Virus record (IMG/VR): IMGVR_UViG_3300044620_000152
Coordinates: 1-30,496 of that record
DNA: 30,496 nt
Direction: 5' to 3' (one strand)
From: a virus
The notes beneath the pieces were generated by a model, which saw only the letters and a list, made by a program, of their open reading frames with translations, was not told where the DNA came from and searched no databases. The number at the start of each line of letters is the position of its first letter. Within the stretch, counting starts at the first letter, position 1. Shown in pieces: positions 2,978 through 29,555 of this stretch. A program made the position numbers and the translations under genes.

Positions 2978-3697
2978 ATGATAAACGAAGTTAGAAATAC
3001 AGTTCTGTCTATATTAGCAAAAGACAATCGAGGATATATAACTCCATTTGAATTTAATCTATTTGCTAAACAAGCACAACTAGATGTATTTGAACGATAT
3101 ATCTATCTATATAGTAATGCAATTATTAAGCAAAATCAAAGAGCTCATGGTGAAGGTTATGCTGATGTACCTAAAAAAATATCTGAAGTTATAGATACTT
3201 TTTATAAAGTAATTTCACTTACTTATGATGCACCGTATTTTGAAGTACCATCGGATAGTTATTTCGTTCAGAAGTTAGTTTTAAATAATAAAGAAATAGA
3301 GAAAGTAAGTCAACAAAAAATTCTTTATTTATTGGCATCAAACTTAACCGCACCATCTGTTTCTTATCCTGTTTATACATTGATGGATAATGATGGCACA
3401 ACTACATCAAGAGCAAACTTTATGGTATATCCTAATACAATAACTGCAAATGTAGATGCTCATTATTTAAGGTATCCAAAAGAACCAAAATGGACTTATG
3501 TTGCATTAGGGCCGAATAATTCAGATCCATTATTTAATCCATCTGCTGTTGACTATCAAGATTTTGAATTACCAATGAGTGATTTTTCTGATTTAGTTGT
3601 TAAGATATTACAATATGCTGGCGTATCAATAAGAGAGCAAGAAGTAATAGCGGCAGCTAAGGCTGAAGAGTTACAAGAAATACAACAAAAACAATAA
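2978..3697 (+). CDS. crAss-like ring/adaptor protein (head-tail connector)
   Basis: This 239-aa protein begins MINEVRNTVLSILAKDNRGYITPFEFNLFAKQAQLDVFERYIYLYS, a pattern I associate with the ring (adaptor) proteins stacked under the portal in crAss-like phages. The N-terminus is helical, the middle is beta-rich with PSDSYFVQKLV and YFMVYP-like strands, and the C-terminus is a charged helix (REQEVIAAAKAEELQEIQQKQ) typical of connector proteins that dock on the portal ring. It is followed after 3 bp by a second ring protein. Which ring of the crAss001 collar it equals cannot be settled here. Confidence 0.7.
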   Translation: MINEVRNTVLSILAKDNRGYITPFEFNLFAKQAQLDVFERYIYLYSNAIIKQNQRAHGEGYADVPKKISEVIDTFYKVISLTYDAPYFEVPSDSYFVQKLVLNNKEIEKVSQQKILYLLASNLTAPSVSYPVYTLMDNDGTTTSRANFMVYPNTITANVDAHYLRYPKEPKWTYVALGPNNSDPLFNPSAVDYQDFELPMSDFSDLVVKILQYAGVSIREQEVIAAAKAEELQEIQQKQ

Positions 3698-3700
3698 TAA

Positions 3701-4609
3701 ATGGCATACATTACTAACTATCAATATTATACTAACAATGGTATAATACCTGAAGATATAAACTGGGGTTCATATCAATATGTTAGCCTTGCTGATATAG
3801 TAAACAATTTTATGCTTATGTATGTTGGCAATGATAAACTTGTTAATAATGTTGAGCGTTATACTGTTTTATTTCATGCAAAAAGAGCCATTCAAGAACT
3901 TAACTATGACGCTTTAAGAAATATTAAGGTACTTGAGTTGCAATTAGGCAGTCAATTAAAAATGGTATTGCCTCCTGATTATGTTAATTATGTAAGAATA
4001 TCTTTATTAAGAGAAGGTGTATTATTACAACTGACTGAAAATAGAACAATATTATCAGCTACTGCGTATTTACAAGACAACAATCTTGACATTATTTTTG
4101 ACTTAAATGGAGAAGTTGTAACAGGAACATCTAAAGTTGATATAATGAGACAAGATGCTCAATTATATACAGGTCCAGGTCCTTATAATGGTTACTATGG
4201 ATGGCCTTATAATGGCGATTGGTATTTTGGTTATAATATTGGTGGTCGTTATGGTTTAGCTACAGATGAAGCAAATAGAAATCCTAAATTCACTATAAAT
4301 AAAGCAGCTGGTGTAATTGACTTTTCGACTGGAGTTGAAGATGGTTACATTGTACTTGAGTACATTTCAGATGGAATGGAAAATGGTGATGATTCTCTTA
4401 TCACAATCAACAAATTAGCTGAAGAGTATATTTACAATTATTTAAAGTGGGCTATTTTAAGTAACAAAACAGGTGTACAAGAATACCTTGTTAATAGAGT
4501 TCAAAAAGCCAAAACAGCATCTTTACGAAATACAAAAATAAGATTGAGCAATCTGCACCCAGCGAGATTACTTATGTCGTTAAGAGGTCGTGATAAAATT
4601 ATAAAATAA
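3701..4609 (+). CDS. crAss-like ring/adaptor protein, P22 gp4-like position
   Basis: This 302-aa protein contains LADIVNNFMLMYVGNDKLVNNVERYTVLFHAKRAIQELNYDALRNIKVLELQL at residues 29-83 and a PPDYVNYVRIS motif, both recurring in crAss-like connector proteins. A Gly/Tyr/Trp-rich loop (YNGYYGWPYNGDWYFGYNIGGRYG, about 164-187) precedes a C-terminal helical region that includes LAEEYIYNYLKWAIL and a basic tail. It likely forms the ring between the portal-side adaptor and the muzzle. Its stop codon shares its last A with the ATG of the muzzle gene, so translation is probably coupled. Ring number is uncertain. Confidence 0.7.
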   Translation: MAYITNYQYYTNNGIIPEDINWGSYQYVSLADIVNNFMLMYVGNDKLVNNVERYTVLFHAKRAIQELNYDALRNIKVLELQLGSQLKMVLPPDYVNYVRISLLREGVLLQLTENRTILSATAYLQDNNLDIIFDLNGEVVTGTSKVDIMRQDAQLYTGPGPYNGYYGWPYNGDWYFGYNIGGRYGLATDEANRNPKFTINKAAGVIDFSTGVEDGYIVLEYISDGMENGDDSLITINKLAEEYIYNYLKWAILSNKTGVQEYLVNRVQKAKTASLRNTKIRLSNLHPARLLMSLRGRDKIIK

Positions 4610-9945: not shown

Positions 9946-9950
9946 ATTTG
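9943..9950 (+). promoter_or_regulatory. -7 element overlapping a stop codon before the GNAT-like gene
   Basis: TAAATTTG matches TAnnTTTG. Its TAA is the stop codon of the preceding gene, and it ends 3 bp before the ATG at 9954. As at 2965 and 8638, it would give a near-leaderless message. No -33 motif at standard distance. Confidence 0.4.
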
Positions 9951-9953
9951 TGT

Positions 9954-10355
9954 ATGGAAGTTCGATTCTTAAATGATGATGATTATAAAACGTTATCGTC
10001 ATGGTGGAAAGAATGGGGGTGGACACCTCCGCCAGCTGATATGTTGCCACAAAATGGCAAAGGAGGCGTGATGGTTCACAAAGATGGCTTTGAGATATGT
10101 GCTGGATTTGTTTACTTTACAAACTCAAAAACAGCTTGGATAGAATTTATAGTTTCGAACTTTCAATATAGGGAAGATGATAGGCATGAAGCTCTTGAAT
10201 TTCTTATAAATGTATTAATAGAGATGGTTAAAGATACTGGAGATTTTAAATACATTTATACATCTTTAAAAAGCAAAAGTCTAATTGACAGATATAGCAA
10301 TTGTGGTTTCCAAAAGGGAGACAGTAATTGCCAAGAAATGGTTAAAATATTATAA
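9954..10355 (+). CDS. Small GNAT-like protein in the virion block
   Basis: This 133-aa protein has the layout of a short GNAT acetyltransferase: MEVRFLNDDDYKTLSSWW, PPADMLPQNGKGGVMV, the strand pair AGFVYFTNSKTAWIEFIVSN, a helix with REDDRHEALEFLINVL and the ending SLIDRYSNCGFQKGD, which resembles the usual last GNAT strand (LIxxYxxxGF). The acetyl-CoA loop (Q/RxxGxG/A) is not obvious: YREDDRHEA stands in its place, so activity is uncertain. Similar proteins are common in phages. I chose the ATG at 9954 over the in-frame TTG at 9948 because the promoter-like element covers the TTG. It sits between the muzzle and cargo genes and ends 1 bp before the next start. Substrate unknown. Confidence 0.6.
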   Translation: MEVRFLNDDDYKTLSSWWKEWGWTPPPADMLPQNGKGGVMVHKDGFEICAGFVYFTNSKTAWIEFIVSNFQYREDDRHEALEFLINVLIEMVKDTGDFKYIYTSLKSKSLIDRYSNCGFQKGDSNCQEMVKIL

Positions 10356-11004: not shown

Positions 11005-12450
11005 ATGGCAAGCAGATATAACGAATATACAGGATATATACCAGCTACACCGATAGACTGGGCTAAACTAACTGGAGGACTAGTTACTACCATACAAGGT
11101 ATTGGTGCTGAAAGACAAGCTGAAAAAGCTGCTTTAGACAAACTCCAATCAGACAATACTAAAATACTTCAGAATACTGAACTAGGTAAAAGCCAAACAT
11201 TAAACCAGTTGATATTATCTGGTTCAAATGACGGTAGACAATCAATGATGGAATGGAATAGACAATTAAAGGCTGGTCAAATTACTCCATTAGAATATAA
11301 GAATAGAATTAATAACTTGATGGATAGTTGGTCAACATTTGCAAACACTGCAAAGGGATATGATCAACAAATGCAAGAGGCATTAAAAAGGCAGCAAGAA
11401 GGTTTAGGTTCTGGATTAGAGTTAGAGTTGAATAATAGAATTGCTCAATTGGGTGATTTAAGAAACAAAAAAACACAGGTTGATCCTAATAATGGCAATT
11501 TTGTTATTGGTCAATTAGATGAAAATGGTTTATTTGATCCATCAAGTGTAATGGATTTAAGATCTATATCTCAACCAGGAAATATAATTGACAATAAAGT
11601 TGACTTATCATCAATTGTAGATGAAAAAACAAAGGGTTGGGAAGATTGGACTATTGAGCTTGGAAACAAGACAATTACTGATGCTTTACAAAATCCAGCT
11701 ATTCAAAGAGCAAGACTTGATTTAGCAAATGGTGTTTTAAATAATCCTAGAGCTATAACAAGTGTACTTAAAGACAACACTGACGGTGATTATGACTTTT
11801 ATTATAGTGAGAAAGATTTAAACTCTAAAATTCAAGATAGAATAGTAAAAGAAAATGAGTTAAATAAACAATTAGGTAAACCTGCTTTAAGTGGCGACGC
11901 TTTAGATAAGTTTATTGAATCTGAGAAAGAAAAGTTTATATTACTTGCTCAAGATGATCAAGGTGTTTATCAGCCTAATTTGACAAATAAACAAATTGAA
12001 AATGCAAGGCAAACAGTTTTGGATTCAATTGATTCAAGATTAAAAAGAAAAGTTGAACTAGACGAACCTCAATACAGAAGTAGCGGAGGTGGAGGCGGAG
12101 GTAGCCGAAAAGAAGAAAAGCCTATTTCAAATATAGCTAGTAAGGTTTATAGTGCTATACAAATATCTGGAAGTAATCCTAGAGAAGCTGAAATAAAATT
12201 AAGTGAAGCATCAGGAGGAGAATATATATTTAAGTTTGAATCTGATGGTTTAAATGTGTATAAGGCTGGAGATAGAGGTCAATTAGAAAAACAAAATTCA
12301 GTTCCTTTTAAGGGTAATAAATATGCTGATAATTTATATAGATATTTTCCAGTAAATGATCAAGAGTGGATAAATGACTTAAATAAATTAAGACAAGGTG
12401 GAGGATCATCAAGAGCAAGATCAGGAGATCCATTAGGTTTAGGAATTTAA
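11005..12450 (+). CDS. Cargo-like internal virion protein
   Basis: This 481-aa protein starts MASRYNEYTGYIPATPIDWAKLTGGLVTTIQGIGAERQAEKAALDKLQ and is mainly helical and coiled-coil-like to about residue 350. A Gly-run linker (SSGGGGGGSRKEEK, about 358-371) separates it from a C-terminal domain (ISNIASKVYSAIQISGSNPREAEIKLSEASGGEYIFKF..). A second Gly/Ser/Arg-rich tail ends the protein. It has no enzyme motif that I recognise. Position between the small Ala/Gln-rich protein and the giant polyvalent protein suggests an injected cargo protein like those packed in the crAss001 tail. The start follows the previous stop after 3 bp with an A-run only. An 11-A run follows its stop. Confidence 0.55.
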   Translation: MASRYNEYTGYIPATPIDWAKLTGGLVTTIQGIGAERQAEKAALDKLQSDNTKILQNTELGKSQTLNQLILSGSNDGRQSMMEWNRQLKAGQITPLEYKNRINNLMDSWSTFANTAKGYDQQMQEALKRQQEGLGSGLELELNNRIAQLGDLRNKKTQVDPNNGNFVIGQLDENGLFDPSSVMDLRSISQPGNIIDNKVDLSSIVDEKTKGWEDWTIELGNKTITDALQNPAIQRARLDLANGVLNNPRAITSVLKDNTDGDYDFYYSEKDLNSKIQDRIVKENELNKQLGKPALSGDALDKFIESEKEKFILLAQDDQGVYQPNLTNKQIENARQTVLDSIDSRLKRKVELDEPQYRSSGGGGGGSRKEEKPISNIASKVYSAIQISGSNPREAEIKLSEASGGEYIFKFESDGLNVYKAGDRGQLEKQNSVPFKGNKYADNLYRYFPVNDQEWINDLNKLRQGGGSSRARSGDPLGLGI

Positions 12451-12460
12451 AAAAAAAAAT

Positions 12461-15400
12461 ATGCCATTAGATTATACAGAATTTGCTAAAAAAATAAAAA
12501 CTAAATATCCAGAATATAGTGATGTTGATGATTTAACTCTATCAAAAAAAATGGTTGAGAAATATCCAGAATATAAAAATGAAGTTTCATTTGAATCATT
12601 AAAAAAAAAAGGGGTTTCACAATCAACACAAAACAACGGAGTTATTTCATCGGACAAATCCAAGACGGAAAATCAAAAGCATTCGGAATCTTTATCTTCA
12701 GTAAATAGATGGGCTAATGTAACTGAACCAAAGGCTACACCTAGCAAATATAAGACTGACGATTATATTGATGTAATAGAGAATAAGCCTCTAAAGAAAA
12801 AGAAAGTTGTATCAGTAAAACCTGATCAATATGTTCCTGAAGTAAAGGTTACTGAAATTGATGCTCCTACAGAAAAGGAAGCTGAAATAATGATGGAGGA
12901 AGATTTCGGTAGAAAGGAATTTGATGCCTATCAGAATATCAATAAGATAGACAAAAATATTGCTTTTAAAACTGAAGATGAGGCTGTAGAGGAATTAAGA
13001 AAGAAGTTTAAGGGTAGTGGATTTATTTTCGAAACTACTGGTGTAGGTAACAAAATAAAAATATCTACATCTACAAATGGTGGGTTGACTACAATAAACT
13101 CGAAAGAATTTGAGTTAGTTCCTTCAGCGTTGTATGGCCAATCACAAACTGGTATGCCTGTTGCTCAAGCTGAAGATTTAAATAGAATAAGCAACGATAA
13201 ATACAACGAGATTGTTGACTTCATGAGCAAGTCAATACTAAAGAAAACAGATAAAGATTTCTTAAAAAAGGACGTAAAAGATTACGGTCAACTTGTCAAT
13301 TTAATGGCTGAGAATCCGTATAAGTATGGTGAGGAGTTTTTAAATCAATATGATACTGACAGGTGGTTTGACAATCAATATAGAGACCTTGTTATTGAAT
13401 CAAAAAGTCTTAAAAGAGATGAAGATCAACTATTAGCTCAATATGATGAATTTATAAAAAATCCAACTAGTCCAAAACAAGAAGCGGAATTAAAAAATAA
13501 AATAAATTCTCTTGATGAAAGAAAGAATATACTAAAAAGTAAATACGATGACTTGGGTAGATTGAATGAAAAGTTAAAAGTATCTTCAGCAGTATATTAT
13601 AAAAATAAAGAAAAGCAAGGTAATACGCTTGGTCTAATATCTAAAAGTTTTATAAAAGGTGCTTTTAATATGGAGAAAGCACTAGCTGGAGTAGCTGCTG
13701 ATGTGATGCCTTATGTGCTTCCAGAGGGGTCTTTAATGCCAGATGTTCAAAGAGAAAAATTGAAGGCATCTGGAATGAGTGAAAATGAAATAAAAGATTA
13801 TGCATCAAAACAACTTAGAAAACAAATAGTTCCTCAAATAGAAAAGGGGTTGACTGATTTGGTTTCATTTGGAACTACAGATGAGTATATTCAATCTAAA
13901 GATAGAAATGATTTAGAAAAAGTAGCTTCTTTTTTATCAGAAAGTATTGGTACTGCAATATCAGCAGGAGGTAATCCTGCATTGCAAAAGGTAGCATTCT
14001 TTAGTCAATCTTATAATGCTATTGAGGATGAGATGAACTCTAGTCAGTTTGATGGATTAAATCAATTTGAAAAAAAGTTAATATCCGTTCCTTATGCAAT
14101 GACAATAGGTGCATTAGAGAATTTAGGGTTTAAGTTCACAACTGGTGCAACAAAAAGCCCACTATTTAATAAGTTGGTAAATAATATAGTTTTTAGAACT
14201 TTCTCTAACTTACCAAAAGATGCATCAGCTACATTAATGCAGAATGAATTAAAAAGAAATACAGCAGCTATGCTAGCTAATGCTGGATTAAGAATAGCTG
14301 GAGGTGCATTAGTTGAAGGTGCTGTTGAAGGTACTCAACAATTAGATGAGATAGCAATAAAGAATATATCTAACGCTATAACTGATAAAGATTACTTTCA
14401 AAATGTTCCTGATATTACAACAGCTAAAGGAATTAATCAAGCAATTGGTGCTGCCGCTACTGATGCTTACTATGGTGCTCTAGGTGGTTTAATTATGTCC
14501 GCTGGATCTGAATCAGTTTCAGCTATTAGAGAAGGTTACAGTAATAGAAAAAGCGATGATGACTTTGCTGTGTTTTCAAACTCATTAAAGGATAATAATC
14601 TTAGATCATCTATTGAGTCAGATATTAAATCCAAAATATTAAGTGGTGATATAACAAAGGAAGAAGCAAAGGCTCAGATTGAGTCAATGAATAAATCATA
14701 TTCAATATTGCAATCTATTCCTGACAACTTAAGTTTAAGGGATCAAAGAGATTCATTTAATTTGATTCTTGAAAAACAAAAGATACAGAAAGAAACAGAA
14801 GGAAAAGACCCTGCTCTTGTTGCTGCTCAAACAGACAGAGTAAACGAGATTAATGATGAACTAAAAACAATAAGTAAAAATGCCGTTCAAGTCGAAACAG
14901 CAGGTGAAATTCCTGTACAGCCAGAAACCGCAGTTGGCGGAGAAGTGGCGCAAGGAGAACCCCAAGCAGAACCTCAAGTCGCTACCGAAGAAGGTGAAGC
15001 AGCAGTCCAAGAAGAAGTAACTCCTGTTGGAGAAGTATCTCTTCCAACCGATGAAATAGGTAGGCCTGTAGGTAGTAAGGAATATAAGTCTGGTGTTAGT
15101 CAAAAGAAAGGTAGAACTATAACTAGAACTACTCCTGACGGAACAAAAATTAGAGGTACATTTAAGATTGTTCCTGCTAGTGAATTAATACCTAGTCATA
15201 ATCCAAATACATTTGGTAAGAATGAATCCTTCCCGCAAAACAAAGAAGGTAAAACAATAAATGATAGGGATTATGAAACTGACAAGCCTGCTCAATCGCA
15301 AGTAATTGACATAGCTCAAAACATTGACGAGAGAGCAGTTACACAAACTCCTATTGTATCTAAAGAAGGTATCGTTTATGACGGTAACAACAGAACGATG

Positions 15401-22580: not shown

Positions 22581-22878
22581 TAGGACTGGCAAAATACTTA
22601 CCAAGCTCGCCAGTTTTTTCTCGTTCGATATAAATTTCTCTTTCTCCATCGCTTAAACTATTAAAATCATATTCTTTTTTATTAAACATTTCTTCTTCTG
22701 TCTCGTAGTATGGTCCGTCTTTATACCCTAAGTCTACCTTGCCATAGTGTCTGACAAGTATACCTCTTATATATTTTTGAACTATACATACTTGAACTCC
22801 TGTTATTTCACTTATTTCATCTAATGTTTTTCCTTCTGCACATAATTCTTTGATTCTAGATTTATTCTTCTGGAACAT
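22558..22878 (-). CDS. Small helix-turn-helix protein
   Basis: Residues about 6-37 (SRIKELCAEGKTLDEISEITGVQVCIVQKYIRG) form a clear helix-turn-helix of the resolvase/sigma-like kind (G.TLDEIS..TGV....V..YI). The C-terminal half is acidic (DGPYYETEEEMFNKKEYDFNSLSDGEREIYI). It is therefore a candidate DNA-binding regulator of the phage or a small accessory factor. The frame extends upstream to 22920, but the ATG at 22878 gives a 17-nt overlap with the nuclease gene rather than 59, and starts right before the HTH. It could be the protein that binds the nearby dyads, which is speculation. Confidence 0.6.
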   Translation of the reverse strand: MFQKNKSRIKELCAEGKTLDEISEITGVQVCIVQKYIRGILVRHYGKVDLGYKDGPYYETEEEMFNKKEYDFNSLSDGEREIYIEREKTGELGKYFASPNGLHGGH

Positions 22879-23131
22879 TATAGAATTGTGTACCATCGTA
22901 GACTGATGCTTTAACGCCATGATTGTTTAGTTCTTTAATTCTGAATACTTGTAATGGTCTAGGTTTTTGGCCAGGTCGCTTGACTTCAATAAACTCAACA
23001 TCTGAATTCTTAGGTATCGCCAATAGGTCTGGTATGCCAGTCTTATTGGTGACAGATAGCTTGATGACATAGTAACCATCCTTCTCAAGTTGCTTGATTA
23101 ATTTAGATTGTATTTGCTGTTCTGTTGCCAA
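22862..23131 (-). CDS. VRR-NUC family nuclease
   Basis: From the TTG at 23131 the protein is 89 aa. It has the compact PD-(D/E)XK layout of stand-alone phage VRR-NUC proteins: N-terminal Glu in ATEQQIQ, GIPDLLAI (Asp35), FIEVKRPG (Glu49, Lys51) and the downstream PLQ..R (Gln61). These nucleases cut DNA, often branched structures, and phage members serve in replication or recombination. The frame runs back to an ATG at 23191, but those 20 residues cross the promoter and inverted repeats and do not resemble the family, whereas MATEQQIQSKLI is a typical family start. A TTG start is therefore favoured. Its end overlaps the HTH gene. Confidence 0.8.
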   Translation of the reverse strand: MATEQQIQSKLIKQLEKDGYYVIKLSVTNKTGIPDLLAIPKNSDVEFIEVKRPGQKPRPLQVFRIKELNNHGVKASVYDGTQFYNVPEE

Positions 23132-23162
23132 TATTTGCCAAATATATAGATTATTGGCAAAT
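23125..23162 (-). promoter_or_regulatory. Promoter -7 element inside a repeated TTGCCAA operator
   Basis: Minus-strand TATATTTG (23146-23139) lies 7 nt before the TTG start of the nuclease gene. It is embedded in an inverted repeat: ATTTGCCAA at 23133-23141 with TTGGCAAAT at 23154-23162 (9-bp arms, 12-bp gap). A third half-site TTGCCAA lies at 23125-23131. The overlap with the promoter suggests repression by a dimeric regulator. No TTTG at the standard -33 distance. Confidence 0.5.
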
Positions 23163-23180
23163 GTTTGAAATAAAAACATA

Positions 23181-23215
23181 ACAAAGTGCAAGCGAAACTA
23201 TCGCATCGCCTGCAC
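23181..23215 (-). terminator. Terminator between zinc-ribbon and nuclease genes
   Basis: Minus-strand stem GTGCAGGCGA (23215-23206) pairs with TCGCTTGCAC (23195-23186) with one G-U pair and a 10-nt loop, followed by TTTG and a T-rich stretch. The pairing is better on the minus strand, so it probably ends transcripts from the gene at 23233-23511. Confidence 0.65.
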
Positions 23216-23232
23216 GACTGTTAGTGGCAATA

Positions 23233-23511
23233 CTAATCAACATCATCATTCCATAAAGGATGGCCACATTCATCACAAAAACCAACTCTAATTTCTCTAT
23301 TATCCTTTTTTACATTTATCTCTCCACAATCTGTACATACATATACTTTAAAACCAATCGGTAAAGTACTACCACTAACATCATGTTGGCTCAATGCTAG
23401 TTTCTCCTCCAGCCAATCGGCATAAGCAGGTATGTTATCGCTAAATATTAAATCTGTTTCACGAGAATATTCAATTCTCAACTTTATTCTTTCTTCACTT
23501 ACTTTATTCAT
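23233..23511 (-). CDS. Small zinc-ribbon protein
   Basis: This 92-aa protein has an N-terminal charged helical half (VSEERIKLRIEYSRETDLIFSDNIPAYADWLEEKLAL) and a C-terminal zinc ribbon: CTDCGE (Cys59, Cys62) with FCDECGH (Cys79, Cys82). Two CxxC pairs about 17 residues apart would bind one zinc ion. The first half resembles small phage proteins that end in WLE.KL. The function is unknown; possibilities are nucleic-acid binding or a protein-protein adaptor. It lies between the terminator on one side and the cassette-like element on the other, so it marks the left border of that insertion. Confidence 0.6.
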   Translation of the reverse strand: MNKVSEERIKLRIEYSRETDLIFSDNIPAYADWLEEKLALSQHDVSGSTLPIGFKVYVCTDCGEINVKKDNREIRVGFCDECGHPLWNDDVD

Positions 23512-23559
23512 TCTAATCTATTTTTAATTAATAATTCGCACTAAGCCAACATGAGGAAC

Positions 23560-23574
23560 GTTATATGAAATGCC
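23560..23574 (+). repeat. Left inverted end of the cassette-like element
   Basis: GTTATATGAAATGCC. Its inverted partner at 24852-24866 differs at one base. It lies 48 bp outside the left copy of the A-rich inner repeat. Confidence 0.65.
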
Positions 23575-23638
23575 TTGCTGACCGTTTTCAATTGAAGTTC
23601 CGTGAAGGAAAAACAAAAAGAAAAAAGCCACCGCACTT

Positions 23639-24790
23639 TTAAAATAAGGTAATTTCATTTTTACTTCTCATTTCATTTATTGGTAATAATAATTCTTCAT
23701 ATCCACTTATACTTTCTCCTATGTATTCGTGGCAATAAGATGCTCTTTCTAATCTATTTCTTGCTGACGTGTCAGATGAACTACTTGATTTATGTCTTAT
23801 TTTACCATTCATTGCCGTTCCTCTCCATTGTTTGCTTCTATTAAAGTAAACTCCTAATGCGGGGTTAACTGTTTTTATAAAACACAATCCACCCATATTT
23901 CTAATTAAACCCCCACAAAACTCTGACAGTTTTACACCTAATCCCATCCCTTGAAAGTCAGGCATTACAACTATTCTGCTTATTGCAAATCCATTAGCAC
24001 ACCCCTTTCTTGGTTGGTTAATTATTGCTACAATTCCAATAGCTTTGTCGTTCCATTCAAATAATAAAAACTTACAACTCTTATTTACATCTTCGGTTAA
24101 ATAATGATGCTTTTTGAAGAAGTCCCAAGTTTCAGCCTCGACTCTACTAACTTGTAATGTGATTTGTGGTCTGCCTTGCCGAAGCCAGTCGCCTCTTTCG
24201 AGTACGCCTCCTTTTTGTGGTGAACAAGTCCAATCAGGCATTAACCATTCTAATATGTCGTAATGACAAGATGCAACTATTATCCTTTTGTTTTCTCTAC
24301 GAATATATTTCTGTAAAGCAAAACTCATAGCTTTTGCAACATCTCTATCTACAACAGAAGTATATTCATCAACTAAAATTACTTCACCATCTTTTGCAGA
24401 TGCTACTAAATAAGCTAATGTTGCTCTGTATTGTTCGCCATTTGATAATGTGTGAAATGGTCTTAACCAAGTAGGAACAGAACTCAATCCCATTGAAGTT
24501 AAAACTAATGTAGCATCTTTTGGGTCTAACCAATCAAAGTTACTAATCAATGGTTTTTCTGCATCAAAGTTTACCTTTTTTACATCGCCCATCTTTTTTA
24601 ATATAGTAGTTTTTCCACTTCCACTACCTCCTAAAATTACTCCAATATTCCAATCAAAGTTTTTAGCTTCTCCTAAATTCATAGGAATGGATACAGATGT
24701 TTCTTCTCTGTTCTGAATATCAAATGCTTCATACACATACTCGGTGTATTTATCATTCAGTATTTTTGTTTTTAATTCAATATTTGCCAT
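23639..24790 (-). CDS. ABC-type ATPase fused to a GNAT acetyltransferase
   Basis: This 383-aa protein has two domains. Residues about 40-205 are a soluble ABC ATPase: Walker A GGSGSGKTT (54-62), signature LSNGEQ (115-120), Walker B VILVDE (137-142), H-loop SCH (174-176). Residues about 210-383 are a GNAT domain with HHYLTEDVN, FEWNDKAIGIVAI and the acetyl-CoA loop SRIVVMPDFQGMGLG (271-285). There are no membrane segments, so it is not a transporter. The combination matches COG2401 (ABC-type ATPase fused to predicted acetyltransferase), whose function is unknown. The GNAT half resembles Mom-like DNA-modification enzymes, so a role in modifying phage DNA or other anti-defence action is possible but speculative. 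It sits alone between inverted repeats, unlike the tightly overlapping genes around it. Confidence 0.8.
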   Translation of the reverse strand: MANIELKTKILNDKYTEYVYEAFDIQNREETSVSIPMNLGEAKNFDWNIGVILGGSGSGKTTILKKMGDVKKVNFDAEKPLISNFDWLDPKDATLVLTSMGLSSVPTWLRPFHTLSNGEQYRATLAYLVASAKDGEVILVDEYTSVVDRDVAKAMSFALQKYIRRENKRIIVASCHYDILEWLMPDWTCSPQKGGVLERGDWLRQGRPQITLQVSRVEAETWDFFKKHHYLTEDVNKSCKFLLFEWNDKAIGIVAIINQPRKGCANGFAISRIVVMPDFQGMGLGVKLSEFCGGLIRNMGGLCFIKTVNPALGVYFNRSKQWRGTAMNGKIRHKSSSSSDTSARNRLERASYCHEYIGESISGYEELLLPINEMRSKNEITLF

Positions 24791-24851
24791 CGCTTTTTTT
24801 CTTTTTGTTTTTCTGTTTAGTGTTCCAATTGGGCTTTATCTTAAATAAGTC

Positions 24852-24866
24852 GGCACTTCATATAAC
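24852..24866 (-). repeat. Right inverted end of the cassette-like element
   Basis: GGCACTTCATATAAC on the plus strand, i.e. GTTATATGAAGTGCC on the minus strand. It is the inverted partner of 23560-23574 and runs straight into the attC-like hairpin. Confidence 0.65.
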
Positions 24867-24952
24867 ACGGGTTTGGCAAAAGTGGGCAGAAACATTCTGC
24901 TAAAATTGAGCATCCTACAAGCCCACCTTCGCCAAGCCCGAAACCGTTATAA
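24861..24952 (-). repeat. Long attC-like imperfect hairpin
   Basis: Outer TATAAC (24861-24866) pairs with GTTATA (24946-24951). Inside, 17 of 20 positions pair between 24868-24887 (core TTTGGC and GTGGGC) and 24921-24940 (core GCCCAC and GCCAAG). On the minus strand two of the three mismatches become G-U pairs. The loop holds a perfect nested hairpin GCAGAA-ACA-TTCTGC at 24886-24900. Two-block arms, an extra-base asymmetry and TATAAC/GTTATA ends recall attC sites, although GTTATAA does not fit the strict GTTRRRY core. It forms the 5' leader region of the ABC-GNAT gene. Confidence 0.6.
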
Positions 24953-25013: not shown

Positions 25014-25051
25014 CTATTAAGGAAGCCACCTCCAACTATTTATAACAACAA

Positions 25052-25112
25052 TTACACCCAATCGGGTATAATTTTAGTTAACAGATGATGTATTATACCT
25101 ATTCGGGTATAA
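25052..25112. promoter_or_regulatory. Pair of 20-bp operator-like dyads
   Basis: TTACACCC-AATC-GGGTATAA (25052-25071) and TTATACCT-ATTC-GGGTATAA (25093-25112) share the same layout: 8-bp arms, 4-bp centre, identical right arms preceded by TC. Their starts are 41 bp apart, close to four helical turns, so two dimers would bind the same DNA face. Neither is followed by a T-run, which argues against terminators. They lie in the region upstream of the ABC-GNAT gene, 2 bp past the stop of the gene ending at 25114. Confidence 0.55.
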
Positions 25113-25113
25113 A

Positions 25114-25407
25114 TTAATCGTCAATCTTACTTGACGGCCCACATCCTAAATACATCTCTATTCTAAAACCTTTGGCTTCATAGCTTTTAAATTTATTTTT
25201 TTTGATATGTGACTCAACAATTTCTTCGTATTTAATTCGATCCAACTTGTATGCATTGTAATCAATTACTTTTTGCCCTAGCTCATTAACTGGAGCATTG
25301 GCAACCAACTCATCAAAGTCAGCTGATGGTGTTGCTTCTCTGTACAATTCTCTGTAGCAATCCATTGCTGCATCAAATAATTTCTGTTCTCTCGTTTTTC
25401 TTTTCAT
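25114..25407 (-). CDS. Hypothetical 97-aa helical protein
   Basis: This starts MKRKTREQKLFDAAMDCYRELYREATPSADFDELVANAP, then NELGQKVIDYNAYKLDRIKYEEIVESHIKKNK and a beta-like end FRIEMYLGCGPSSKIDD. I recall the pattern EL...ATP..DFDEL...A..NE.G.K.I.Y..Y.... from small conserved proteins in Bacteroidota phages, function unknown. The frame reaches 25476, but the ATG at 25407 reduces overlap with the helicase gene to 35 nt and fits the family start. It is the last gene of the replication operon before the non-coding region. Confidence 0.6.
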   Translation of the reverse strand: MKRKTREQKLFDAAMDCYRELYREATPSADFDELVANAPVNELGQKVIDYNAYKLDRIKYEEIVESHIKKNKFKSYEAKGFRIEMYLGCGPSSKIDD

Positions 25408-26620
25408 AATCTTTCTTAAAAATGTTAATAGTATATTTTTTCTTTGCTTTAACGGTCTTGTATATTTTATCTTCAATGCCGCCTTTTGAGAATACCCAAT
25501 AAACTTTATTAAACTTACGCTCCATAGTAGTTAATCGGTCGCGTGCTTGCCAATAACTTGTAGCACTAAAGTCAATATTATAAAATACCAAGTAGTCAGC
25601 ATTTTTTAATGATATGCCCTCACGCCCTGATATAATTTGTAAAGCTATATTCTTATCAGTTGAATCAAACTCATCAAGTTCAGTAGTTAAACTATCACCA
25701 AACACTTGCTGAAGTGCGCTAAGCTCTTCTTTAAACTTATAGAATATGCCTATCTTATGATCTGAAAACTTCCACTTTATACATTCAGCTTTAGTGGTAT
25801 CAATAACCATACTGTTACCGCTCTCAAACTTAACTGTGCCACTCCATAATTGGTGTAATTTCTGCATTAATTTTACTGGCGTATCGGCCAATATAACTTC
25901 GTCCTTGCCTTCGACAACTAAGCCTTTCTCAAGTGTTTTAATAATTTGTTTAGTTCTATCAGTCATATCAACATACAATACTTCCTCTTCAATCTCAGTA
26001 GAGAATCCTGCCTGCTGTTGTGTAAATGTAATAACATAAGGAAAGATTGCAGCCATTATTTTAATCTCATCGCCTTTTGAGTAGTCATTCACCATAAACC
26101 CATTTATCTTGCGCTGAAACTTAAATACATAGTCATCAGCCCATCGGTAGAAGTTAACATAATGTCTGAACGGACTATAGTTAGATACCCAAAACTGATG
26201 ATATATCTGACTGAATGACTCTGGTGTCATTGTTCCTGATAGAAATATCATTGGCTTGTCAGCGAACATCTGCTTGTAGGTCTTAGTTGCTAGCCCTGGT
26301 TTTGGAAATGCTCCGAACCTATGGTGCTCGTCATGTATAACTAAGTCGTAGTTAGTATCTTCTAACTTATGCATTGACTCATCATTCGTTACAATTAAAT
26401 CAAACTTATAGCCAAAATTATTATAGTCATTTAGAATACTTGATACAGCCTTCTTTTTAGTTAGAAATAGAGCTCTTTTTGCTCCGTATAGTTTTGCTGT
26501 TTCTAAAGCTGTCAAAGTTTTCCCAGTTCTTACTTCCATAGAAATGTAAACAATTTTGTTTACTTTCAATATGTCAACCGCCCTGTTCGCTATGTTGATT
26601 TGATAATCCCTTAGTTCCAT
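25373..26620 (-). CDS. SF2 DNA helicase, SNF2-like
   Basis: This 415-aa protein carries the helicase motifs in order: Q-motif-like LRDYQ (3-7), motif I VRTGKT (30-35), motif II DEHH (97-100), motif III FLSGTM (about 129-134), and a C-terminal RecA lobe with LQIISGREGISLKNADYLVFYN and motif VI-like YWQARDRLTTMERK. The DExH box and QARDR are typical of SNF2-type phage helicases, which are ATP-dependent DNA translocases used in replication, recombination or anti-defence. At 415 aa it is a minimal version with no additional domains. It overlaps its upstream neighbour by 47 nt and its downstream neighbour by 35, as part of one operon with the primase-helicase. Confidence 0.85.
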   Translation of the reverse strand: MELRDYQINIANRAVDILKVNKIVYISMEVRTGKTLTALETAKLYGAKRALFLTKKKAVSSILNDYNNFGYKFDLIVTNDESMHKLEDTNYDLVIHDEHHRFGAFPKPGLATKTYKQMFADKPMIFLSGTMTPESFSQIYHQFWVSNYSPFRHYVNFYRWADDYVFKFQRKINGFMVNDYSKGDEIKIMAAIFPYVITFTQQQAGFSTEIEEEVLYVDMTDRTKQIIKTLEKGLVVEGKDEVILADTPVKLMQKLHQLWSGTVKFESGNSMVIDTTKAECIKWKFSDHKIGIFYKFKEELSALQQVFGDSLTTELDEFDSTDKNIALQIISGREGISLKNADYLVFYNIDFSATSYWQARDRLTTMERKFNKVYWVFSKGGIEDKIYKTVKAKKKYTINIFKKDYEKKNERTEII

Positions 26621-26903: not shown

Positions 26904-29263
26904 AACTTAAGATTTAATTGTTCATCTTCTTTAACTACAAATTCAATATTCTTTCCAAGAGCATTACGAGTTACTATTGGTTTCTTGCCAAATGCAAACT
27001 CACCATAGCTATCAATCCATTTATAGAACCTGTTTTGAGATACTTTATACCTACCATAATTACTATAATCAGGGTAGTCCTGCGTAAATGAATTGAATAA
27101 GTCTTGTCCTAATGATTTCATCTGTGGCCTAGTGTAAACATTATCTTTTGATGTAGCCCACTCCCAAAAATCAGAACTTGTCTCAGCAATAAATTTACGT
27201 GTTTTTAAGTTCTTGAACTCACTACGTACCAATCCTTTGTTTAAATAAGACTGCAAGTTAGCTATCATATAGTTGTCAAACTTATTCCACTCATACTCAT
27301 CCCATCCGCTGAATAACATGTGACCAAACTCACTCTCAGGTGTAAAAGACTTATTGTAATGCTGCTTGAACTCAAGATCCCACTTACGTCTCTCAAACGA
27401 GTTACCTGCACCCTTAATCGCATAGTTAGTTGTTATGACAATCTTTGGTGATCGTTCAAATGGAATGTGTATCTCGTCCTTGTTCTTCTTCTCAAGTGTT
27501 ATACCTTCAGTGATTACTGAGAACAATCGCTCAAACTCAAAGTTCTTACTAACATCATCAAACACCAACACCTGCGTATCAACTTGAACTCGCTGATATG
27601 GAAATGACTTTTGGAAACTGAACCCCTTGCCATCAATGATGACCATCTTTTTCATGTGACTTACAGACTTTACAAAGATACCCTTACCAGTACCACCTTC
27701 TGGATTGTCGCTTATGACCTCATCGTTCAATATAACAGCAGGACAATAGCTCGCTGGTTTATAACTATGCATCAAGTAACCTATCGTTGACTCAACTGAT
27801 TTAACTCGCTCATTGTCATCGCCTGAAATATTTGTGATGAATCTCTTAAATTCACAATCAACATATGATGTCTCTAAGAAGTTTCTCTTTATCTTCTGAT
27901 CTTCCCAAACAATACCATTCAAGTCCTTGTAGTCAATCTTCTCAACGCCTCGTCTTGTTACCTTGACAGCGCAATTGTTATAGTATAAGTAAGCTGTCTC
28001 TGAGTCATCAGTCATAAACCTGCTGTCTACATTTGTTATGAAGTTCAAGAAGTTCTCAGTGAAGAACTTAGTATTCATTGCAAAGAAGTTATATATTGAC
28101 ATATCTCCAGTACTTTCGATATACTTTAATATGAAGTCCTTTATGACCTCTTCACTTGAGTCTGTTATAACATTGTCTTTAACTCTAACAAATACAAAGT
28201 TCTTTGATCCCTCAGGGTAGTACTTATAGAATCCCTCCTTAGTCAAAAAGTCTCTGAACAGATTAGGCACTAACTCAATCTTACCTTTAGATGATTTTGT
28301 CCAAAACTCATTTGGGTTGGTCTCACTAACAATCTTGTCAATAATCTCAACTGGCACATCTTCATTACGCTCAATAACTTCTTTGATTGGAGTACCGTTC
28401 TTTATATCGTTCTTTATTGCTACAGTCTTGTCGATGTCCTCGTAAAACTTAGTGTTATGGTTGGATACATTCTTGTAACCGCTCTGAATGATTGATGGTA
28501 TCTCATGAGCCATGTCTCCATTAATATCATACGATTCAATAACTGATCTTGCTGTTTCTTTGCTTATACCAAACTCATTGAACGCGCTTGCTAATATGTA
28601 TAAGTTGTTGTTGCGTTGACCAGGTATCATTCCAAAGTTCTTATCCCACCATAATGACAACCGTCTTATAATCTCATTATCATCGGTAACTCTTATCATC
28701 TGCTTGACAACAGGCTTATATTCATCAGAGTTATCCATGTCTGACCATATTAATGACAACTCATTAACATGTATATCAGGATCATGAGACTCATAGCACA
28801 CCCGACTGATGTTTTTACATGTAACGTCAAACTCATCGCAGTCATAGTACTTCTTTAAAGCATTGAAGTATTTCTTATGATTCATTGGGTCTTTTGGAAT
28901 CCTAACCAATACCTTAATGCCATCTCCAGATGGTGAGGTAAATACACAGTAAGAATATTTGTCTGAGATTAATTCTTCTCTCTTTTGGAACAAATGCTGA
29001 TTGTCTCTGAACCCATCAAAGTCAATGCATATTATTCCACTATGCTCTATAATAGCATTGTCAGCTCGCTTTGAGAATGTACCTGAAAAACAAATAGCAG
29101 GTAACTTTTTCTTCTTTTCATTCCTTGCTCCTTTCTCTGTCTCTTTGCGTACATCTTCTACAAGCTCTTTTGATTTGCCATTCTTTATTCTATCAATGGC
29201 TACACTTACATCAACATGGAATGGTGTCGATGTCTCGTTGATTGTCTTGAAATAAGTTATCAT
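26900..29263 (-). CDS. Primase-helicase: VirE/BT4734-like N-domain plus SF3-type ATPase
   Basis: This 787-aa protein begins with a domain like the Bacteroidota BT4734/VirE N-terminal type: IICIDFDGF (Asp81, Asp83) followed by FTSPSGDGIKVLVRIP (108-123) and SRVCYESHDPDI, the arrangement of a primase-polymerase-like active site. A central linker follows, then a helicase core: GGTGKG Walker A at about 523-528, VLVFDDV Walker B at about 565-571 and the sensor-like strand PKIVITTNYAIKG. The C-terminus (about 700-787) looks like a winged helix that reads DNA. It should unwind and prime phage DNA. The start overlaps the DnaA-like gene by 53 nt. Confidence 0.8.
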   Translation of the reverse strand: MITYFKTINETSTPFHVDVSVAIDRIKNGKSKELVEDVRKETEKGARNEKKKKLPAICFSGTFSKRADNAIIEHSGIICIDFDGFRDNQHLFQKREELISDKYSYCVFTSPSGDGIKVLVRIPKDPMNHKKYFNALKKYYDCDEFDVTCKNISRVCYESHDPDIHVNELSLIWSDMDNSDEYKPVVKQMIRVTDDNEIIRRLSLWWDKNFGMIPGQRNNNLYILASAFNEFGISKETARSVIESYDINGDMAHEIPSIIQSGYKNVSNHNTKFYEDIDKTVAIKNDIKNGTPIKEVIERNEDVPVEIIDKIVSETNPNEFWTKSSKGKIELVPNLFRDFLTKEGFYKYYPEGSKNFVFVRVKDNVITDSSEEVIKDFILKYIESTGDMSIYNFFAMNTKFFTENFLNFITNVDSRFMTDDSETAYLYYNNCAVKVTRRGVEKIDYKDLNGIVWEDQKIKRNFLETSYVDCEFKRFITNISGDDNERVKSVESTIGYLMHSYKPASYCPAVILNDEVISDNPEGGTGKGIFVKSVSHMKKMVIIDGKGFSFQKSFPYQRVQVDTQVLVFDDVSKNFEFERLFSVITEGITLEKKNKDEIHIPFERSPKIVITTNYAIKGAGNSFERRKWDLEFKQHYNKSFTPESEFGHMLFSGWDEYEWNKFDNYMIANLQSYLNKGLVRSEFKNLKTRKFIAETSSDFWEWATSKDNVYTRPQMKSLGQDLFNSFTQDYPDYSNYGRYKVSQNRFYKWIDSYGEFAFGKKPIVTRNALGKNIEFVVKEDEQLNLKL

Positions 29264-29555
29264 ATTCTTCGATGTCTTTTAGATATTTTGAATCTTTAAT
29301 TTCCATGTATATATTATGTTTCTTGACACCATGAATAATGGTTGCATGATCTCTACCAAAATATTCACCAATTTGTTCAAACGTCAAACCCATCTCTCTC
29401 ATCTTATTATATAAGAAATACCTCTTGTGACTTTTTGGTTGACTTCTAGATGTTACATTTAAATTATCTTGTTCTATAAGAACCATTATTTTTTCTAGAA
29501 ATTCACTAACATCATGATCCTTCATAAGAGATCCGCAGTAACTACATCTTTTCAT
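29211..29555 (-). CDS. Free-standing DnaA domain IV-like protein with N-terminal CxxC
   Basis: This 114-aa protein ends in the DnaA DNA-binding domain pattern: SHKRYFLYNKMREMGLTFEQIGEYFGRDHATIIHGVKKHN (about 42-81). GRDHATIIHGVKK matches the DnaA signature GRDHSTVLHA with its DnaA-box-contacting residues. The AAA+ ATPase domains are absent. The N-terminus instead has CSYCG, a possible half zinc site. It should bind DnaA-box-like sequences, either to recruit host DnaA to a phage origin or to act as a competitor. It lies directly upstream of the primase-helicase, which favours origin recognition. The gene overlaps both neighbours. Confidence 0.75.
   Translation of the reverse strand: MKRCSYCGSLMKDHDVSEFLEKIMVLIEQDNLNVTSRSQPKSHKRYFLYNKMREMGLTFEQIGEYFGRDHATIIHGVKKHNIYMEIKDSKYLKDIEEYDNLFQDNQRDIDTIPC

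Follow-up and report, generated by a model that had tools for sequence, protein, structure and literature searches.

Classical integrons are built of the integrase IntI, the site attI and attC sites. In phages, according to the sections consulted of Qi et al. 2023 (PMC9892861), CALINs are found in virulent phages, Polaribacter phage P12002L among them, and of six phage attC sites tested, IntI1 recombined five with attI1; in the part consulted of the IntegronFinder 2.0 paper (PMC9024848), few integrons are recorded in Bacteroidetes. The locus described here resembles the phage CALINs, as those sections present them, in that attC sites cluster without an integrase and methyltransferases occur among the cargo, and on visual inspection hairpin, leader, gene and trailer follow one another in P12002L in the same order; among its genes are one for a methyltransferase and one that is Mom-like, and its hairpins were not picked by our own scanner. 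In P12002L (L380) two cassette groups (29140-29265 and 37180-37320) end at a common flank starting AACGGATAAAACAAG, which is perhaps a duplicated docking site. With classical integrons, as the portion consulted of PMC9668308 has them, the locus has in common the R boxes, the hairpin sites, the single-gene units and the insertion at an R box, but it differs in that its gene lies in reverse orientation to attC, an integrase in cis is absent and the host recombinase has no IntI-specific segment. Treponema integrons, in the part consulted of PMC3607928, are likewise atypical in orientation, but there intI is the part that is turned, and here it is the cassette genes, with respect to both attC and an attI-like site. 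While phage CALINs are thus already known, we found no published report of inverted phage cassettes, of a constant cassette frame or of empty and filled phage docking sites in the literature covered, preprints and most subscription journals being outside its scope; in the sections consulted of PMC9892861, neither a comparison of empty with filled sites nor a constant frame was found, and gene direction relative to attC is mentioned only as 'divergent directions' in P12002L.

The DNA analysed, called the window in the following, is the whole stretch of 30,496 nt of an IMG/VR virus record; all coordinates refer to it, and the array is read on its minus strand. Its gene content as seen by Pfam and PHROGs includes phage structural and replication genes, and among the structural genes lies a small ORF of the phage family phrog_17252 (9948-10355). 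Our results revealed that the inserted stretch is a whole cassette array occupying 25052-23223 on the minus strand and consisting of three integron-like units, the ABC-GNAT unit being the middle one; the limits of 23538-24952 given in a preliminary description of this DNA were too narrow. Along the minus strand the order is unit C0, the hairpin attC_A, unit C1 with the ABC-GNAT gene, the hairpin attC_B, unit C2 and a last hairpin at 23226-23173, the docking hairpin or attC_C. Unit C0 (24946-25046, 101 nt) has no notable ORF and, by comparison with L002, L023 and L031, seems to have lost its own hairpin. Unit C1 (23560-24866, 1307 nt) is the cassette body carrying the gene for a 383-aa ABC-ATPase/GNAT fusion (23639-24790; phrog_11143, E 1.3e-134), for which Pfam Acetyltransf_1 scores above the cut-off and ABC_tran just below it. 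Unit C2 (23220-23379, 160 nt) contains the second half of a 92-aa ORF (23233-23511) whose two halves meet in frame at the R box of attC_B. The flanking phage genes, likewise on the minus strand, are one of phrog_13954 (25114-25476; PHROGs match and alignment) and one for a VRR-NUC nuclease (22862-23191; Pfam PF08774), which comes after the helicase in relatives. Two operator-like palindromes (25051-25115) abut the left junction, and L003, L004 and L019 retain them next to their empty sites; one of the two extends into the docking R box.

As for the ends of the units, 20,782 pairs of GTT/AAC ends lie 50-2000 nt apart on the minus strand of the window, and only five of them reach at least 13/15. 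Three of these five, both 14/15 pairs included, fall within the 1.9-kb stretch and are the ends of C0 (14/15), C1 (14/15) and C2 (13/15), and two others elsewhere in the window reach 13. The inverted ends 23560-23574/24852-24866 pointed out in the preliminary description are real, as are its inner inverted A-rich tracts, which hold a perfect 19-nt inverted pair (23608-23626/24795-24813); its left 'half-site' exists too, but as one arm of a longer second hairpin, the other arm of which is at 23381-23402. This second hairpin is attC_B (23373-23566, minus strand; left arm 23533-23554), a long attC-type hairpin with a fold of -19.3 kcal/mol and the start of the 92-aa ORF in its loop; as far as the R box, this hairpin is found again in L322. 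The attC-type hairpin attC_A (24860-24952), on the 5' side of the C1 gene and travelling with C1, belongs to a family present in viral contigs and Bacteroidota genomes and has a folding energy of -20.0 kcal/mol for the minus strand and -16.3 for the plus strand; it ranked first in the window with our own hairpin scanner (33.5, the best of six shuffled windows giving 31.5). By our criteria attC_A, attC_B and the docking hairpin all have RYYYAAC/GTTRRRY boxes around a two-arm hairpin, and the latter two, not picked by the scanner, are defined by comparison with relatives. Since a naive R-box/hairpin scanner gave seven hits in the window versus 3.5 per shuffled window, single-site statistics were dropped in favour of comparison between genomes. 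An Rfam search of the sequence gave no match, and ARAGORN found no tRNA.

The comparison of relatives is based on 43 related loci from a search with the neighbouring helicase, in six of which (L002, L003, L004, L019, L023 and L031) both flanks can be aligned right up to the site. These six are the informative relatives, and in each of them homology ends exactly at window positions 25052 and 23223. The site is empty in L003, L004 and L019; it is filled in L002 by two DNA methyltransferase units, in L023 by one and in L031 by a short stretch without notable ORF, and the units of these three differ in ends and frames. A further relative, L044, has only the right-hand break in common and carries small ORFs inside. 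The junction sequence GTATAAC/TAA is common to empty and filled sites, and since in the empty sites the flanks overlap by TAA within GTATAAC, the crossover is placed inside an integron-type R box (RYYYAAC). The comparison of empty and filled sites accordingly shows site-specific insertion at an R box and not insertion at varied sites with target duplication, as a single site is used in the six informative relatives and the empty sites give no sign of target duplication beyond the one R box. The docking hairpin (23173-23226, minus strand) at the right edge is common to the window and seven relatives, namely the six above and L044, and occurs at empty and filled sites alike; 99.0% of the pair cells of its stem hold, which is weak structural proof because there is just one compensatory pair in nearly identical sequences. 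In L006, L007, L014, L018 and L041 the neighbouring genes are present and the full docking hairpin is absent, with apparent remnants of it in L006 and L018, and more distant relatives have other genes at this place. As a separate matter, L031 (444-2666) and L034 (4735-6936) have the helicase gene in two parts, divided at about residue 100 and about 0.9-1 kb apart; an intron, an intein and an assembly fault are candidates.

The cassette body C1 has a frame that stays constant around changing genes, and its 15-nt ends are present in eight viral loci, the window counted. The first 78 nt (the leader, 24789-24866, reaching about the start codon) are identical at 75-77 of 78 positions in L143, L152 and L162, and the last 78 nt (the trailer, 23560-23637) at 75-78 of 78-79; the interiors, despite the nearly identical leader and trailer, give no blastn match with that of C1. 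A scan with the trailer only, which is independent of the hairpin, found 28 viral stretches, 17 with a complete cassette and 11 without a recognisable leader in the sequence examined. In 13 of the 17 complete cassettes the same hairpin end lies upstream, other hairpins taking its place in four, and the sequence beyond the trailer varies, which means that the gene lying 3' of the hairpin moves together with it in most cases. The 19 longest ORFs in the frame, those of the window and L162 included, make up 11 unrelated families. When 395 Bacteroidia genomes were searched, nothing beyond short weak matches to the trailer came up, in 16 of them, and attC_A was matched over its full length in one, G001.

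The hairpins of the attC_A family have an asymmetric core, with TTGGCGAAGG in one arm, against which the direction of the neighbouring genes can be read. A direction-blind pattern gave 44 viral and at least 118 genome stretches, the latter including chance matches in other phyla. By a strict second-arm rule 123 of 178 core-motif hits have no second arm; the polarity count was made with a looser arm rule on 97 hairpins, 38 viral and 59 from genomes. Of the viral hairpins, 30 are flanked on both sides by ORFs that follow the direction of the core and none by ORFs opposed to it on both sides; six more have an ORF with the core on one side and no ORF seen on the other, and two are mixed. Among the genome hairpins 37 have ORFs against the core on both sides and only two with it on both, besides 13 against on one visible side, four mixed, two with on one visible side and one without ORFs. 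Fisher's test on 30/0 versus 2/37 gives 1.6e-17 with kinship among the contigs ignored; the viral count includes related contigs, since L044 and L156 are one contig counted twice, L130, L147 and L164 are the same cassette, and several contigs give two hairpins each. A second genome sample (15 hairpins in 20 loci) contains eight against on both sides, three against on one visible side, three mixed and one with the core. This last hairpin, and one of the two of the first sample, share their contig with portal, terminase and tail tape-measure genes, which marks the contig as phage. The core-bearing strand gives the more stable fold in all 38 viral hairpins and in 38 of the 59 from genomes. Judging from these gene directions, the cassette genes in viral contigs are inverted relative to attC as compared with chromosomal arrays. 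The gene being reversed relative to the attC-type hairpin, the hairpin comes to stand 5' of the gene with which it travels; in fact the ABC-GNAT gene has no attC of like polarity at its 3' end, but runs with the core of attC_A. Bacteroidota chromosomal arrays (L305, L308, L311 and L318) share the attC_A-type hairpin family with the locus, but their genes run against the core, and they have a recombinase, which is absent from the window. In the Vaginella chromosomal array L305, two 208-aa ORFs (2290-2916 and 11908-12534) are identical in their first 25 residues and adjoin the same kind of hairpin.

An attI-like flank, AAC-T..TAT...CGCAA, follows 17 of 19 phage arrays (all except L130 and L142) and, when scored by leave-one-out, ranks among the top 0.7% of AAC contexts; flanks leading into another hairpin were excluded from the scoring, as were L135 and L162. 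The same profile fits the stretch beside the recombinase in the host arrays L318, L311 and L308 (three of three, chosen by eye), where the genes point away from the attI-like site, whereas phage genes point towards it. The docking site of the window was itself considered as an attI-like site of this kind and rejected, as 4.9% of the background scores as high. No match to a tyrosine recombinase (PF00589) was found in the window, which is a fragment, nor in 17 of the 19 virus records, G030 and G031 having one each. The one in G030 is a phage-borne protein of 277 aa (L303, 1198-2031) about 10 kb from its array and 34-39% identical to the host array family. On the host side, Xer-like tyrosine recombinases at 16 loci in 15 genomes are related, sharing 37.7-64.9% identity with the L311 enzyme where they align with it, and attC_A-type hairpins lie near the recombinase in only four of the 16. 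The L311 recombinase aligns to IntI4 at 12-202 and 248-318, the segment between being skipped, and none of the 15 host genomes has an integron-integrase match (TIGR02249) above the cut-off; in the part consulted of PMC8138268, the integron-specific insertion is described as not fully conserved in its subgroup. Of the features of a complete integron, neither an integrase in cis nor the IntI-specific additional domain was found.

With regard to cargo, DNA-modification enzymes account, by Pfam or PHROGs matches, for 22 of the 30 cassette ORFs scanned: methyltransferases for 19, Mom proteins for two and a TET-associated glycosyltransferase for one. The scan covered part of the cassettes, and its first ten ORFs had been picked partly for a methyltransferase-like look. 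In view of what such enzymes commonly do, the cargo may have an anti-restriction role, and the ABC-GNAT protein, by its association with this cargo, might share it. Relatives of this protein are found in 64 phage records and in at least 80 viral contigs, and most of those among the matches listed have no flanking hairpin of the attC_A kind. Kinship of the protein with Mom was considered and found no support (hhalign probability 3.5%), and a PDB profile search returned weak ABC and GNAT hits only. Another ABC-GNAT gene, in L071 around 3001-4149, has inverted repeats of different sequence on both sides and is perhaps an independent cassette. A different feature of the array is the 92-aa ORF, which begins in the loop of attC_B at 23511, crosses the R box in frame and ends at 23233. 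Its N-terminal half is found in L322 up to the R box and its C-terminal half in L321 and L323, where other N-termini precede the shared second half with the switch again at the R box. These four examples suggest that protein modules may be joined by the same R-box recombination.

On this comparative evidence taken together, the locus is most probably an integron-like cassette array at a phage docking site, mobilised by an integron-type recombinase acting in trans. Passive capture, in which the phage would have acquired a piece of a chromosomal integron array through illegitimate or homologous recombination, as proposed in the sections consulted of Qi et al. 2023 (PMC9892861), and the piece would have been immobile there since, is in keeping with the commonness of attC_A-type hairpins in Bacteroidota genomes; we consider it very unlikely in view of a site empty in three relatives and otherwise filled in three more with R-box junctions, of a polarity opposite to that of chromosomal arrays, and of the short weak trailer matches in Bacteroidia. 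Homologous recombination between common leaders and trailers is another source of changing genes, as the frames would offer about 78 nt of homology at either end of a gene, and such mosaicism within a frame may well add to the diversity of ORFs; as the explanation of the whole it is very unlikely, for it accounts neither for the empty sites and their R-box junctions nor for different frames at one site.

A non-autonomous, MITE-like transposon with inverted repeats, carrying single genes and served by a transposase in trans, appears the least probable of these explanations and indeed highly improbable. The inverted ends and A-rich tracts, together with the constant leader and trailer around unrelated genes, are what such an element would show, and the preliminary description had named an element of this sort as its alternative. 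However, that inversion is confined to ends and tracts, as the complementarity of the whole leader to the whole trailer in the window (59/99) is not above the best of 300 shuffles (0.598); moreover all six informative relatives use one site, the empty site is one R box, ends and frames differ at that one site, and the hairpin family is found in arrays adjoining tyrosine recombinases. The leading proposal of the preliminary description, an integron-style mobile cassette captured by the phage, fares better: it had suggested looking for an empty site in related phages and for the same ends around unrelated genes, and the former was found in L003, L004 and L019 and the latter in viral contigs, so that the relatives do not all carry the gene here without conserved ends, nor are the ends restricted to this locus. 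The lack of a tyrosine recombinase in the window agrees with it as well, but the cassette is one unit of three, and compared with chromosomal arrays its gene points the other way with respect to the attC-type hairpin.

For the array mobilised in trans, the mechanism could be as follows. An integron-type recombinase would be supplied in trans in the host cell, the likeliest enzyme being the Xer-like tyrosine recombinase that adjoins arrays of the hosts. Acting on a cassette circle, it would fold attC in single-stranded form and recombine it with the docking R box, by which the phage would gain, lose or swap genes one at a time. The cassette genes, lying in the direction of the phage operon, would be read by phage transcription, and as the scanned cargo is mostly DNA-modification enzymes, the swapping probably aids escape from host restriction. 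On a broader scale, we give about an even chance to the view that Bacteroidota phages have a cassette economy of their own, with recombinase-less docking sites, either attC-like or attI-like, a pool of genes inverted relative to attC and a constant frame for unrelated anti-restriction genes, all set in motion by a Xer-like recombinase of the host, an enzyme without the IntI domain; this pool would be separated from the chromosomal one by its polarity, and R boxes could join protein modules in frame. If this is true, phages exchange DNA-modification genes singly by way of the gene-capture machinery of their hosts, and they provide a natural test of integron-type recombination without the IntI-specific domain. 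Moreover, the polarity rule predicts that new phage cassettes would join the promoter-distal end of the transcription unit, unlike those of bacterial integrons, and that the phage and chromosomal pools would seldom mix.
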